DNA from: Fluviirhizobium alvei
Lineage (GTDB): Bacteria; Pseudomonadota; Alphaproteobacteria; Rhizobiales; Rhizobiaceae
NCBI RefSeq assembly: GCF_030551875.1
Contig: NZ_JAUOZU010000024.1
Location: 1 to 52,446 of the forward strand
Reading direction: 5' to 3'
Length of the DNA: 52,446 nucleotides
In this document: positions 21,072 through 25,420 of the stretch, one piece after another
Position numbering within the stretch: position 1 is the first letter of the stretch
Layout: the number at the start of each line of letters is the position of its first letter
Translations under genes and position numbers: made by a program
Notes under the pieces: generated by a model
Seen by the model: only the letters and a program-made list of their open reading frames with translations
Told to the model about the DNA's origin: nothing
The model's database searches: none

Positions 21072-21278
21072 ATGAACGGATATAAGCCTTCTATGTATCT
21101 TGCGAAAATTGGCATAACAGTCGCTGCATGTTCTGCTATTTTTGGCGTTATCGTGTTATCTGCGTCTATCTTGAAATATAACTCAGGAGACGCATTGGTG
21201 CAGGCATTAGTTGTTGGCGGAGCTGCTGCCGTGTTCCTAGTCAATGTCATCGCGTGCGCTTTTATCTGGCGCGCATAA
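21072..21278 (+). CDS. small two-helix membrane protein
   Basis: A 68-residue protein with two hydrophobic segments (IGITVAACSAIFGVIVLSAS and ALVVGGAAAVFLVNVIACAF). The ATG at 21072 follows AAGGACGATTGAGC, and the identical leader recurs before the next gene at 21281-21294, so this gene is flanked by 17-bp direct repeats. Function unknown. Confidence 0.6.
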   Translation: MNGYKPSMYLAKIGITVAACSAIFGVIVLSASILKYNSGDALVQALVVGGAAAVFLVNVIACAFIWRA

Positions 21279-21294
21279 TGAAGGACGATTGAGC

Positions 21295-21909
21295 ATGGCA
21301 AACAACTGGTATGCAATCCGCACACGTCCAGGCTCACAACGGCCTGTCAAGGCTGGTTATTCCGGTGACAGGTTTGTCGAGGACGAGACGATCATTGAAC
21401 GCAACCTCCGCCATGCAGGTTTCGACGGGTTTATGCCGGCAACATACCGCGAGATCCGCCACCACCGTACAGACGAGTATATCACCAAGCGCTATCCGCT
21501 CATGGTTGGCTATATGTTCGTCCGCAATCCTGCCAGCTTCTACAAGCTAAAGGACGTCGTTGGCGTCTCTGACATCCTTGGCGTAGCTGGCTCGCCGATG
21601 GCGATCTCTGAGGCGACTATTTCCGCTATTCGTGACGCAGAGGAACGCGAGATTGAAATTCTAGAACGTCGCCGTGCTGCAAGGCTGCAGAAAGAGCGCA
21701 AGCTATGCCGCAAGCTAACTCGCAAAGAGGCGCGTGAACTGTTCCCGGCGAACAAGCGCATCATTGTCTCAAGCGAAGGTTATCTTTCAGGCATGGCCGG
21801 GGTTATCGTGGATGCTACAGGCCGCAATACGATCAAAGCTGTGATTAACACGTTGAATGGACTTGTTCCGGTTGAGCTTGGTATTGAAGATTTCCGTGAA
21901 GCAGTGTAA
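21295..21909 (+). CDS. NusG-like transcription antitermination protein
   Basis: A 204-residue protein. The NusG N-terminal domain is visible in NNWYAIRTRPGSQ (strand 1), IIERNLRHAGFDGFMP, KRYPLMVGYMFVRN and DVVGVSDILGVAG. A long charged insert (EREIEILERRRAARLQKERK) precedes a C-terminal KOW-like segment (VSSEGYLSGMAGVIVDATGR). Specialised NusG paralogues (RfaH, LoaP) bind RNA polymerase and suppress termination, often after a DNA or RNA signal in the target operon. Here the gene is followed by a structured leader and the whole late operon, the place held by lambda Q. Confidence 0.85.
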   Translation: MANNWYAIRTRPGSQRPVKAGYSGDRFVEDETIIERNLRHAGFDGFMPATYREIRHHRTDEYITKRYPLMVGYMFVRNPASFYKLKDVVGVSDILGVAGSPMAISEATISAIRDAEEREIEILERRRAARLQKERKLCRKLTRKEARELFPANKRIIVSSEGYLSGMAGVIVDATGRNTIKAVINTLNGLVPVELGIEDFREAV

Positions 21910-22756
21910 AGAGGTTTGCATTAGGCATGATTTTGGGTGTTCAGAGCGGTATCGCCGGCCCTCCGCCATATCTAAATGGCGCTGGGTTTATATTGCCTGA
22001 ATTCCCGCATGTTTGCCGAATGCAGCATTGACTACATGAGATTGATGTCAGCGCAAGCCTTGTCGGCAAAGCAGTTTGGAATGGCGTGATTGACTGCCCA
22101 TCGTTTGGCAGGATTACGAAATGGTGATGGGTGCCTCCTTTGGCATAATCTTGCAAGTCCAGAGCCGATCCATTCCAAAGCATATCGCCATAGATGGCGC
22201 TGGCGGCCCGTATTGTGGTGAAAGCCGCGACGGATAACAAAAGACAACCTGTATAGGTTATCGCCGCTAATAGTTTGGAATGGTGTCTCAAAGGGCACGA
22301 TGAGTTGGTAATAGCGCTGATTCCGCGCCGTATGGTTCGAATCCAACGCCGTTCCAAAGCATATCATACGATGGTGTTTAGTGGGTGGTGAAGCGCCTTA
22401 TAGCGAGGGATGTAGTACGGTCCCAGAAGCCCAGTACGATGGCAATGTCACTAGAACATCGTACTTGAGCACGGCAAGAAAAATCGCCATTGGCAGGCTA
22501 ACCGTGCAGCCAAAACATATAAGACGATGGTGTTTTGAAGCCGCTCCGGAATGCAGGCTTCATGCTGCACCCCAACACCTCCTGCTAGCCAGGTTAAGCG
22601 GTCCGGCGGTCGTCTGTGTAATTCGCCAGAATGGGCAACGATATCAGCAAGCGGCGTGGATTAGTACACGCGGTTGGACCGAAACGACCTGAGAGTTCGG
22701 AGCCAGTTGGCCAGACTACCTTTAGCCGGTGACAACCCGGCCTTGCTGATCATTCC
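21910..22756 (+). ncRNA. candidate large structured RNA (GOLLD/ROOL-like position)
   Basis: About 850 nt without a credible gene. Stems seen: 21917-21922/22019-22024; 21964-21968/21977-21981; 22075-22084/22170-22179 (TTTGGAATGG/CCATTCCAAA); 22096-22102/22126-22132; 22186-22190/22195-22199; 22233-22238/22257-22262; 22274-22283/22349-22358 (TTTGGAATGG/CCGTTCCAAA); 22433-22441/22457-22465 (9 bp perfect); 22469-22474/22502-22507; 22537-22542/22556-22561; 22599-22604/22676-22681 enclosing two more; 22725-22729/22737-22741. The linker CCAAARCATAT recurs at 22175, 22354 and 22510. It ends at a tRNA gene. Giant phage RNAs GOLLD and ROOL are known for this size and tRNA-adjacent phage location. Membership is not established. 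Confidence 0.5.
22274..22358 (+). ncRNA. tRNA-like domain within the structured region
   Basis: An 85-nt domain closed by 10 pairs contains GGTTCGAATCC, a perfect tRNA T-loop box, close to its 3' end. The anticodon region (GCGC-TGATTCC-GCGC) lacks a proper U33/purine-37 loop and the T-stem is weak. It is therefore not a normal tRNA; a decayed tRNA or a tRNA mimic within the larger RNA is possible. Confidence 0.4.
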
Positions 22757-22833
22757 GCCTGCATAGCTCAGCTGGATAGAGTCCATTCCTTCTAAGAATG
22801 TTGTCGCAGGTTCGAGCCCTGCTGCGGGCTCCA
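22757..22833 (+). tRNA. tRNA-Arg (anticodon UCU)
   Basis: A 77-nt cloverleaf: acceptor GCCTGCA/TGCGGGC, D-arm TAGCTCAGCTGGATAGAGT, anticodon arm CATTC-CTTCTAA-GAATG with anticodon TCT (reads AGA), T-arm GCAGG-TTCGAGC-CCTGC, encoded CCA. AGA/AGG codons are frequent in the phage early genes, so it may support phage translation. It lies at the 3' border of the structured region and upstream of the packaging genes. Confidence 0.95.
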
Positions 22834-23153: not shown

Positions 23154-23366
23154 CCAAAGCAGACGGCCTGCTAATAGCCGTAGTTGCATAAAAGTGTCTG
23201 GAAAGCCTCGTGAAGGACAAGCCCGCAAGGGAGCGACTAGGGTAACAATTCATAGGGCGGGCCCCTCCTGTGCTCCTCCAAGCAGAGCGCCAAGCATCGA
23301 TCGGTGAAAGCCGCAATACCGCCGCCTAGCCTGTCCCTTTACAGGCCATGAACCGGGAAATCATGC
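23154..23366. other. 210-bp gap upstream of terminase genes
   Basis: No gene. Stems GCCCGC / GCGGGC (around 23221-23266) and GCCTGT-CCCTTT-ACAGGC (around 23329-23346) are present. A packaging site (cos or pac) is normally close to the small terminase gene, so this gap is the best candidate location. No repeat set that would prove it is visible. Confidence 0.35.
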
Positions 23367-23563: not shown

Positions 23564-24064
23564 ATGCCTGTTCTCACCAATTCGCGGCATGAAGCGTTTG
23601 CGCAAGCCATAGCGAAAGGGGCAAGCGCAGTTGACGCTTATGTGCAGGCTGGATATGCACCAAGCCGTTCTGCTGCATCAAGGCTGTCAACAAATGTGAA
23701 CATAGAGCGCCGTGTGGCGGAATTGATCAATAGAGGGGCCGACAGGGCAGAGGTTACAGTAGCCAGGGTTCTGCAAGAACTCTCTCGCATCGGCTTCTCC
23801 GATCTTCGACGCGCATTCGACAAAAGCGGACGCCTATTGCGACCCGAGGAATGGGACGACGACACAGCTGCCGCTATCGCTTCTGTCGAAGTAGTGACGC
23901 GCAACATTGGCGATGGAGAAGTCGAACACGTCCACAAGATCAAGGTATGGGACAAGAACAGCGCTCTTGAGAAGATCGCCAAGCATCTTGGCATGTTTAT
24001 CGAGCGCGTTGAACACTCGGGCGGGATGTCTCTCAATGTGACGTCAGAGGACGCAGAACTGTGA
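23564..24064 (+). CDS. terS: terminase small subunit
   Basis: A 166-residue Terminase_2-type protein. The N-terminal HTH domain NSRHEAFAQAIAKGASAVDAY, then QAGYAPSRSAASRLSTNVNI, recognises the packaging site. RVAELINRGADRAEVTVARVL follows, then an oligomerisation region. It binds phage DNA and hands it to the large subunit encoded 3 bases downstream. Length and order are typical. Confidence 0.92.
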   Translation: MPVLTNSRHEAFAQAIAKGASAVDAYVQAGYAPSRSAASRLSTNVNIERRVAELINRGADRAEVTVARVLQELSRIGFSDLRRAFDKSGRLLRPEEWDDDTAAAIASVEVVTRNIGDGEVEHVHKIKVWDKNSALEKIAKHLGMFIERVEHSGGMSLNVTSEDAEL

Positions 24065-24067
24065 CGA

Positions 24068-25420
24068 ATGACACCTGTAAAGCTTACGGAGAAGCAGAGA
24101 GAGGCTAACAGGCTTCTTGCTGGCCCCGCGCGGAACATCATGCTACGCGGCGGCTCCCGGTCTGGGAAAACGTTCGTTCTCGTTAGGGCTCTTGTCCAGC
24201 GAGCGATCAACGCGCCTAGATCGCGTCATGTTATATTTCGTTTCCGGTTCAACCATGCAAAAACATCGGTATGGTCGGACACGCTGCCAAAGGTCTTGCT
24301 GCTGTGCTTCCCTTCTCTGAAGGTGCGGTTCGACAAGACGGACTTTTACGTAGAGCTTCCAAACGGATCTCAGATCTGGATTGCAGGGCTTGATGACAAG
24401 GAGCGGGTCGAGAAGATCCTTGGGCAGGAATACGCCACGCTCTATTTCAACGAAAGCAGCCAGATCCCATGGGCATCCGTCGAAATGGCGATGTCGCGCC
24501 TTGCTCAAAAGGTTGAACTGGCGACTGAGATAGCGAAGGCAACGGGTCGTACACACCTGGCTCTCAAAGCCTACTTCGATTGCAACCCGCCATCTAAGCT
24601 CCATTGGAGCTATCAGATGTTTCGGGCCAAGGTAAAGCCGGGGACAAAAGAGGCGCTGGCCAAGCCGGAAGACTATGTAGAGATGCAGGTCAACCCGGTT
24701 GATAATTCGGCCAACCTGCCTTCCGAATACTTTGACGTGCTTGCCTCGATGTCAGCTGCAAAGCGCTTGAGGTTCGAGGCAGGAGAATGGGCAAGCGAAG
24801 TCAGTGGTGCGCTATGGGCTCTTGAGGATCGTTTGGCGCCTGACGGCAAGGTTATGCCTGGGATAGATAGCCTTCGCGTTTCCAGCGCTCCTGACCTGCG
24901 CCGGATCGTTGTTGCCGTAGACCCGTCAGGAACGCGTGGTGATGGCGGTGGCGATGACATCGGTATTGTGGTAGCTGGGCTTGGTATTGATGGCCATGGC
25001 TATGTTCTGCACGATGGAACGTGCCAGTTATCCCCGGAAGGATGGGGCCGGCGGGCTGTTGACCTTTACCACAGGTTCGGAGCGGACAGGGTCATAGGTG
25101 AGCGAAACTATGGCGGCGATATGGTGAGGTTTACGATCGCCACAGCTGACAGGAAAGTTCCTTTCAAAGAGGTTGTCGCAAGCCGAGGCAAGGTCGTCAG
25201 AGCGGAACCTGTAAGCGCGCTCTATGAACAAGGGAAAGTTCACCATGTCGGGTCTTTCCCTGATCTTGAAGATCAGATGAGCAATTTCACTCCTTCTGGC
25301 TATGTCGGTGAAGGATCTCCGGACAGGGCTGACGCCCTTGTTTGGGCATTGACGGAACTCATGGTGAAGGAACAGCCGGCGGCGGCTGTCTTTGGTACGT
25401 ATTCAGGAACGACGAGATGA
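24068..25420 (+). CDS. terL: terminase large subunit
   Basis: A 450-residue packaging motor. The ATPase has Walker A GGSRSGKT (about residues 29-36), a Walker B-like ATLYFNESSQIPW with the catalytic Glu, and FDCNPP. The RNase H-like nuclease has IVVAVDPSGTRGDGG (first Asp), IGERNYGGDMV and the final Asp in SPDRADALVWALTEL. It translocates DNA into the prohead and cuts it. The stop overlaps the portal start by ATGA. Confidence 0.95.
   Translation: MTPVKLTEKQREANRLLAGPARNIMLRGGSRSGKTFVLVRALVQRAINAPRSRHVIFRFRFNHAKTSVWSDTLPKVLLLCFPSLKVRFDKTDFYVELPNGSQIWIAGLDDKERVEKILGQEYATLYFNESSQIPWASVEMAMSRLAQKVELATEIAKATGRTHLALKAYFDCNPPSKLHWSYQMFRAKVKPGTKEALAKPEDYVEMQVNPVDNSANLPSEYFDVLASMSAAKRLRFEAGEWASEVSGALWALEDRLAPDGKVMPGIDSLRVSSAPDLRRIVVAVDPSGTRGDGGGDDIGIVVAGLGIDGHGYVLHDGTCQLSPEGWGRRAVDLYHRFGADRVIGERNYGGDMVRFTIATADRKVPFKEVVASRGKVVRAEPVSALYEQGKVHHVGSFPDLEDQMSNFTPSGYVGEGSPDRADALVWALTELMVKEQPAAAVFGTYSGTTR

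Follow-up and report, generated by a model that had tools for sequence, protein, structure and literature searches.

Between a NusG-like transcription antiterminator gene and a tRNA gene, a prophage of Fluviirhizobium alvei carries a stretch of about 850 nt without an evident gene, and the question raised by this locus is what kind of RNA it might encode. The whole stretch of DNA analysed, 52,446 nucleotides, is hereafter called the window. The NusG-like gene (21244-21909; Pfam NusG, E 1.3e-9; PHROG transcription antiterminator, 123.9 bits) lies directly upstream of the stretch (21910-22756), and tRNA-Arg(TCT) (22757-22833; ARAGORN; Rfam tRNA, 55.9 bits) starts directly after 22756, as had been predicted. 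Further downstream come an ORF of 99 aa that matches no Pfam or PHROG family, a second gap at 23154-23366, and the genes for the terminase small (23564-24064) and large (24068-25420) subunits (Pfam Terminase_2, PHROGs). The antiterminator gene, the stretch, the tRNA and the terminase genes are on the + strand, and the order along the prophage is antiterminator, array, tRNA, terminase. The ORFs within 21910-22756 (103, 111 and 138 aa) had no PHROG match at E 0.01, and a one-base gap relative to the two relatives introduced below shifts the frames of the two minus-strand ORFs. Accordingly, a protein-coding reading was rejected, and the earlier statement that no gene fits there was right in substance.

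The stretch was read as a non-coding array of structured RNA domains from its folding energy, its stem counts and modules common to other phages. The minimum free energy of 21910-22756 gave a z of -4.0, with none of 100 dinucleotide shuffles as low; an initial test on 21910-22833 with 20 shuffles had given -2.66 on the + strand and -2.31 on the - strand. Complementary 7-mer pairs within 120 nt numbered 21 against 5.9 expected, and 8-mer pairs 11 against 1.55 (0 of 100 shuffles reached either count), with overlapping pairs included so that a long stem is counted more than once. Eight comparison windows from the same contig, taken as coding, some of them overlapping and only a part checked, gave z from +0.66 to -3.65 with 24 shuffles each, 0-6 8-mer pairs and, in one case, 19 7-mer pairs. 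Thus, folding energy alone is weak evidence, and only the 8-mer count sets the region apart.

The individual elements of the original prediction were located in the sequence. The pairing TTTGGAATGG/CCATTCCAAA (22075-22084/22170-22179) is perfect and closes a domain at 22075-22179 as an inverted repeat of 10/10 bp, and TTTGGAATGG/CCGTTCCAAA (22274-22283/22349-22358) contains one T.G wobble. The stem AGTACGATG/CATCGTACT (22433-22441/22457-22465) is held in a domain at 22354-22535 between direct repeats of CCAAARCATATMAKACGATGGTGTTT. The linker CCAAARCATAT occurs three times, at 22175, 22354 and 22510, and the T-loop box GGTTCGAATCC lies at 22334-22344. No homologue was found for the domain at 22075-22179 or for that at 22354-22535. 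Elements beyond those predicted were a Y-RNA stem (22012-22070), a linker hairpin (22620-22645), a helix at 22643-22651/22742-22750 and a gap holding a module after the tRNA.

In a cmscan of the window against 4227 families of Rfam 15, only the tRNA was found at the gathering score, and the tRNA plus three sub-threshold matches to other families were found at E up to 10. GOLLD and ROOL, the classes to which the original prediction had pointed, were matched at neither level, and both identities were rejected. The part of the prediction that spoke of a novel, very large structured RNA adjoining a phage tRNA is supported, as homologous modules in other phages show covariation in the Y stem and the tRNA-like domain. 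These two are the pieces identified best, and they belong to kinds of RNA other than GOLLD and ROOL. A tmRNA was also rejected because ARAGORN finds none.

Bacterial Y RNAs and Ro60 have been known for years, and their purpose is little understood. A stem of this Ro60-binding type was identified at 22012-22070 (+ strand), and its identity as a Y-RNA-type stem, which may bind Ro60, is well supported by motifs, a whole-genome pattern search and covariation. The stem is composed of a basal helix (TTTGCCGA/TCGGCAAA) and the motifs CGAATGC, GACTACA, ATGTC and CTTGTCG, which were derived from the YrlA alignment and the host copies. The 5' motif occurred in 0 of 20,000 shuffles of the region. It matched the 5.2-Mb host genome six times, five times in a Ro60-Y RNA-RtcB operon and once here, and the reversed control pattern gave no match genome-wide. 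When the window stem was compared with five host and two phage stems, the basal helices differed in sequence and kept their pairing, with both-sided changes in four of the five outer pairs; the inner helix of the window stem has one A.C mismatch. A cmscan of the window with limits relaxed to E 10 gave no match to Rfam YrlA (gathering score, 69 bits). With model R3, whose pairing was mis-set, 22014-22073 ranked first in the window (9.0 bits, E 0.29; next, 8.2); on 41 sources, the model also found host Y RNAs at 19.2, 18.8 and 14.8 bits. Since cmscan was silent and R3 weak, the case for the Y stem rests on the other tests.

The stem shares CGAATGC, ACTACA, TGTC, CTTGTCG and the covarying basal helix with the Y RNAs of Rfam YrlA (RF02553), five of which are carried by the same host genome. 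Unlike them, it has no tRNA-like insert, as the distance from ACTACA to the GTCG end is 28 nt, too short a loop, against 78-141 nt in the host copies; the tRNA-like domain of the window stands apart from the stem, about 200 nt further downstream. It also differs in reaching no Rfam score, in not standing beside a Ro60 gene, and in being a unit of an array of about 850 nt that ends in a tRNA.

The host operon lies on another contig and encodes RtcR (259.5 bits), a Ro60 protein (vWA, 62 bits; TROVE, 23.6 bits), five Y RNAs and RtcB (99.6 bits). The five Y-RNA stems, recognised by motif, are in tandem at L323:6328-7059 (contig C44, about 503.3-504.1 kb); YrlA scores were 71.3, 62.1, 60.8 and 25.5 bits, of which one (71.3) passes the threshold. 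By eye, the tRNA-like insert of several host Y RNAs reads circularly permuted, with the T-arm and acceptor first, followed by the 5' acceptor and D-arm. Ro60 exceeded the cut-off in 6 of 61 genomes sampled from the order, the host genome included. No Ro60 was found in the prophage because the single Ro60 place of the genome is on the other contig. The host Ro60 together with the array is one case.

The Y stem of the window is not alone among viruses. A module that recurs in Rhizobium phage arrays aligns to Rfam YrlA; the copy in RHph_N3_2 scored 34.9 bits (gathering, 69) with the tRNA-like insert missing, at E 1.6e-6 in a 141-base search and 7e-4 in 64 kb. A scan of IMG/VR for such mini-Y stems gave 52 matches in 51 stretches. 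A basal helix of at least 3 bp was present in 42, and the other 10 were dropped before covariation was counted. Among 36 distinct stems (the window and 35 viral), 97.4% of cells were paired and 109 were changed on both sides; the covariation was 0.613, where shuffles gave 0.143 (sd 0.017) and sliding no more than 0.119, in a set where the CGA/TCG pairs and the 5' GAC were fixed by the search pattern and three outer pairs by the basal-helix filter. In the case of the inner helix, whose 3' strand was unselected, 95.5% of cells were paired and five of eight pairs changed on both sides. The Rfam YrlA gathering score was reached by none of 18 mini-Y loci tested, so that these stems escape annotation, yet a single viral collection supplied enough of them to make up, with that of the window, 36 distinct versions. 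Ro60 was encoded in 3 of 34 virus records, which covered 30 of the 41 good mini-Y loci (that of the window included) plus L042, L149, L177 and L240, and in all three the stem motif shared the strand of the Ro60 domain and lay 1.1-1.9 kb away from it. The absence of Ro60 from the other 31 records proves little because nearly all records may be fragments.

The second domain with identified relatives, at 22274-22358 (+ strand; core 22277-22355), was assigned from homologues, covariation and tRNA cross-matches. It contains an acceptor-like helix, a D-arm-like hairpin, the hairpin GCGC-TGATTCC-GCGC (22314-22328) and a T-arm (22330-22347) with a bulged A. Of 50,697 phage records, only that of Microcystis phage Mwe-JY13 gave a convincing DNA match (67 nt at 88%), which lies in a non-coding gap after the terminase gene; a pattern scan gave a second homologue on IMG/VR contig L090. 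Across the three known members, the acceptor, D-arm-like and T-arm helices are kept by covariation. For the 19 proposed pairs, 96.5% of cells were paired and eight pairs had both-sided changes, which none of 500 shuffles reached; the D-arm-like pairs are invariant and so lie outside the covariation test. In place of the anticodon stem, the window has GCGC/GCGC and L090 has CCCC/GGGG, with the same loop TGATKCC, and the bulged A of the T-arm is kept across the relatives.

ARAGORN made no tRNA call on 22277-22355, calling only 22757-22833, and the domain does not form a cloverleaf with an anticodon arm; cmscan gave a sub-threshold tRNA-Sec match over it (19.1 bits, < 47). Model R2 was run on two genome samples from the order and class, one of 397 and one of 385 (the host's own genome included, some genomes in both samples), and showed no new member among the matches listed, of which the best reached 31.8 bits. 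Of 58 cross-matched loci kept, 23 were checked, comprising 19 tRNA-Tyr, two tRNA-Ser and two without a tRNA; 21 overlap ARAGORN tRNAs. In two tRNA-Tyr alignments to R2, the acceptor, D-arm and T-arm were paired and the anticodon/variable part was skipped. Accordingly, 22277-22355 looks like the elbow of tRNA-Tyr without the anticodon arm. The acceptor-like helix, the D-arm-like hairpin and the T-arm with a TTCGAAT loop are common to tRNA-Tyr and the YrlA tRNA-like domains. In contrast to these, the domain of the window has a 4-bp hairpin with loop TGATKCC in place of the anticodon and variable arms, a bulged A in the T-stem and no permutation, and no CCA end is present in the window.

Several other tRNA-like elements were encountered. 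When 73 sources were searched with R2, L086 and L088 scored 31.9 bits; these are tRNA-like, not counted as members, and each shows an extra uncalled tRNA-like domain beside tRNA-Tyr. L086, L087 and L088 are tRNA-rich virus contigs with 30, 41 and 7 tRNAs called. At the start of the RHph_N3_2 array, L093:2675-2763 is a tRNA-Tyr-like element with an oversized variable arm on which ARAGORN is silent. An Oscillibacter contig was the only genome contig to match the tRNA-like pattern; 150 bases of it were read, and it was not counted. Pattern matches in L094, L258 and L089 looked coding on inspection by eye, and they were taken to be chance matches.

The predicted structure of the array thus shows covariation in two domains, and both the Y stem and the tRNA-like domain have homologues; transcription, processing, Ro60 binding and a biological effect are predicted. 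The most likely function, we infer, is that the array transcript engages the host Ro60/RtcB RNA repair or titrates tRNA-directed nucleases. An even chance is given to a phage-encoded compound RNA that acts in trans on the host Ro60/RtcB or on a tRNA-cutting defence. A search for a sigma-70-type promoter or a terminator gave none exceeding shuffles, which counts against this reading. The YrlA tRNA-like domain has been proposed as a competitive inhibitor of a tRNA nuclease (PMC7790460), the Salmonella rsr-yrlBA-rtcBA operon is under prophage control (PMC9879122), and phage tRNA-Tyr overcomes retron-Eco7 and Septu (PMC11555353, PMC13096335). Given these published findings, the array may recruit or block Ro60/RtcB or a tRNA-cutting defence.

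In such a mechanism, one late-region transcript, read through from behind the NusG-like antiterminator gene, would carry the modules in series. A Y-RNA stem able to bind the host Ro60 (Rsr) would be followed by a tRNA-like domain built on the acceptor, D-arm and T-arm of tRNA-Tyr, without its anticodon arm, then by more closed domains that a conserved linker hairpin connects, and finally, at the 3' end, by a genuine tRNA-Arg. Processing at the tRNA, by RNase P and otherwise, would release the array, the Y stem would dock in trans on the host Ro60, and the tRNA-like parts would be presented to tRNA-directed enzymes. During lytic growth, the phage could divert or inhibit the host Ro60-RtcB repair or surveillance, or a tRNA-cutting defence.

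Alternatively, Ro60 may play no part, and the array would supply decoys or competitive inhibitors of tRNA-Tyr nucleases (retron PtuAB, Septu) or of other tRNases, with the Y stem as a scaffold relic. The closeness of 22277-22355 to tRNA-Tyr and the protection that phage tRNA-Tyr gives against such defences (PMC11555353, PMC13096335) fit this reading. However, the domain lacks the anticodon and variable arms, whereas Septu cuts the variable loop (PMC13096335), and decoys would have no need of a conserved Y stem. This alternative is considered unlikely, and an RNA acting in trans with host Ro60/RtcB or on a tRNA-cutting defence is preferred.

The gene neighbourhood bears on a further reading, in which the array acts in cis, either as the site that the NusG-like antiterminator recognises or as a leader protected for it, and lets RNA polymerase reach the terminase and late genes. 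TerL was findable at 13 of 38 array loci, four of which (L042, L052, L055, L059) had been fetched via TerL; it was on the strand of the array in 13 of 13 and downstream in 12 of 13, within 1.2-5.1 kb. A NusG-like gene lies directly upstream here, and when the upstream genes of ten further arrays, drawn from 14 loci, were tested, five proved to be of the same type (L042, L059, L103, L152, L209). Both observations would suit a leader. The upstream genes in the remaining five, however, belong to PHROGs of unknown function, with the tested gene in L052 and L055 not being the nearest ORF. Among nine further mini-Y loci with a TerL match, eight were on the same strand and seven had TerL downstream, the exceptions being L355 (other strand, a weak match) and L341 (TerL before the stem). 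Moreover, mini-Y stems also occur among tRNA genes (within 260 nt in 9 of 25 loci scanned by ARAGORN, out of 41), and antitermination would not need a module content that is so variable and so rich in tRNA- and Y-like parts. A leader role is therefore held to be quite improbable, and the trans-acting RNA remains the preferred reading. At L348:1275-1656, a mini-Y stem is followed 250 nt on by tRNA-Arg(TCT), whose anticodon is that of the window tRNA.

Starting from relatives of the window terminase and of the gap in Mwe-JY13, non-coding arrays were found in phages of Rhizobium and Ruegeria and in phages recorded from Microcystis and Pseudanabaena. A linker hairpin of the form AATTCG[hairpin]CAACGA is common to many of them. 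In the window it is AATTCGCC-loop-GGGCAACGATATC (22620-22645, + strand), and its alignments to L173, L240, L257, L177 and L138 exceeded all 700 shuffle controls; L240, L257 and L177 had been fetched with a pattern from the window linker, and the module C scan had yielded L173 and L138 independently. The 3' domain (22643-22750, + strand) is closed by ATCAGCAAG/CTTGCTGAT, the 9-bp helix 22643-22651/22742-22750. The layout of linker, then ATC and the closing helix, was recognised by eye in RHph_N3_2 and other arrays as well. A module designated F (23181-23249, + strand; helix TAGTTG/CGACTA) lies within the second gap, after the tRNA. It aligned to L224 with a score of 137, against a maximum of 87 in 700 shuffle controls, and its motif is also present in the terminase relatives L052 and L055.

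Some arrays contain a further module of about 110 nt, module C. In 16 aligned copies, 8 of 16 pairs changed on both sides, and the resulting model, run on 80 sources, scored 20 loci at >=53 bits. The model had been built without four of these, which are not fully independent because they had been fetched with the module C pattern. The model found nothing in the window, and in the two loci tested (L059, L093) no Rfam family reached its threshold. The same holds for the tRNA-like domain, so that there are two further covarying pieces, this domain and module C, for which Rfam gave no family above threshold.

The mosaic of partial tRNA-like pieces, the two domains without a relative found and a rapid turnover would also be expected of decaying, functionless debris of phage tRNA and Y RNA genes; a search of 100 other genomes, drawn mainly from the genus and family, gave no DNA match to the region, and plasmid sequences gave only short matches at E 0.8. 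The compensatory changes and covariation in both identified domains and the intact closing helices of 8 bp and 9 bp speak against such decay, and we consider it improbable. A GOLLD/ROOL-like giant RNA of a separate family that forms a homo-oligomeric cage is highly improbable, since the array resembles GOLLD and ROOL (PMC12286853) in being large, ornate, phage-borne and near tRNAs, but has no sequence or covariance-model match to them and a different module content, and its modules recur in different combinations across phages where a cage would presumably need one fixed fold.

Some phages are known to carry Rsr with putative Y RNAs, and papers by Chen (2014) and Sim (2020) reportedly deal with phage Y RNAs. 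Listeria phage CKA15 has Rsr with putative Y RNAs (PMC12282133), and jumbo phages have TROVE proteins (PMC7824862). These phages, like the present one, use parts of the Ro60/Y RNA system, but there the protein is phage-encoded, whereas here no Ro60 was found and only that of the host would be usable. An orphan mini-Y stem in a long array with a tRNA mimic, and without a phage Ro60, is to our knowledge new, and no published account of such arrays was present among the open-licence literature matches listed. As it occurs in a host with a Ro60 operon, this combination would allow a direct test of whether Y RNAs are linked to phage-host conflict.

A broader proposal, put forward tentatively, is that compound RNAs of a class not yet described are carried by alphaproteobacterial phages. 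Each would consist of exchangeable modules in a row, such as mini-Y stems, tRNA-like domains and structured modules without a name, with a conserved linker hairpin between them and in many cases with the terminase genes behind, and would borrow or jam the host Ro60/Y-RNA/RtcB repair so that the phage survives tRNA-directed defence. If this is true, phages would each acquire a particular set of RNA decoys as modules are shuffled at the linkers.

Two minor observations concern modules of the related arrays. Module C has the motif GGCAG..GATGCC..GGTCAGTA..AATACC and is present in L059, L093, L096, L101, L103, L105, L112, L119, L125, L130, L134, L138, L140, L149, L152, L157, L162, L168, L173 and L175; some of these loci seem to hold a Y-type permuted tRNA insert, and a possible pseudoknot was noticed by eye. 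A compact module E (GACGGACAAGGC..CGGGGTGGGAAGCGAGTGGTC), absent from the window, was seen at L091:2996-3062 (Streptomyces phage Braelyn) and L002:5852-5971, and it is closed by different 7-bp helices in the actinophage tRNA array and in Mwe-JY13.
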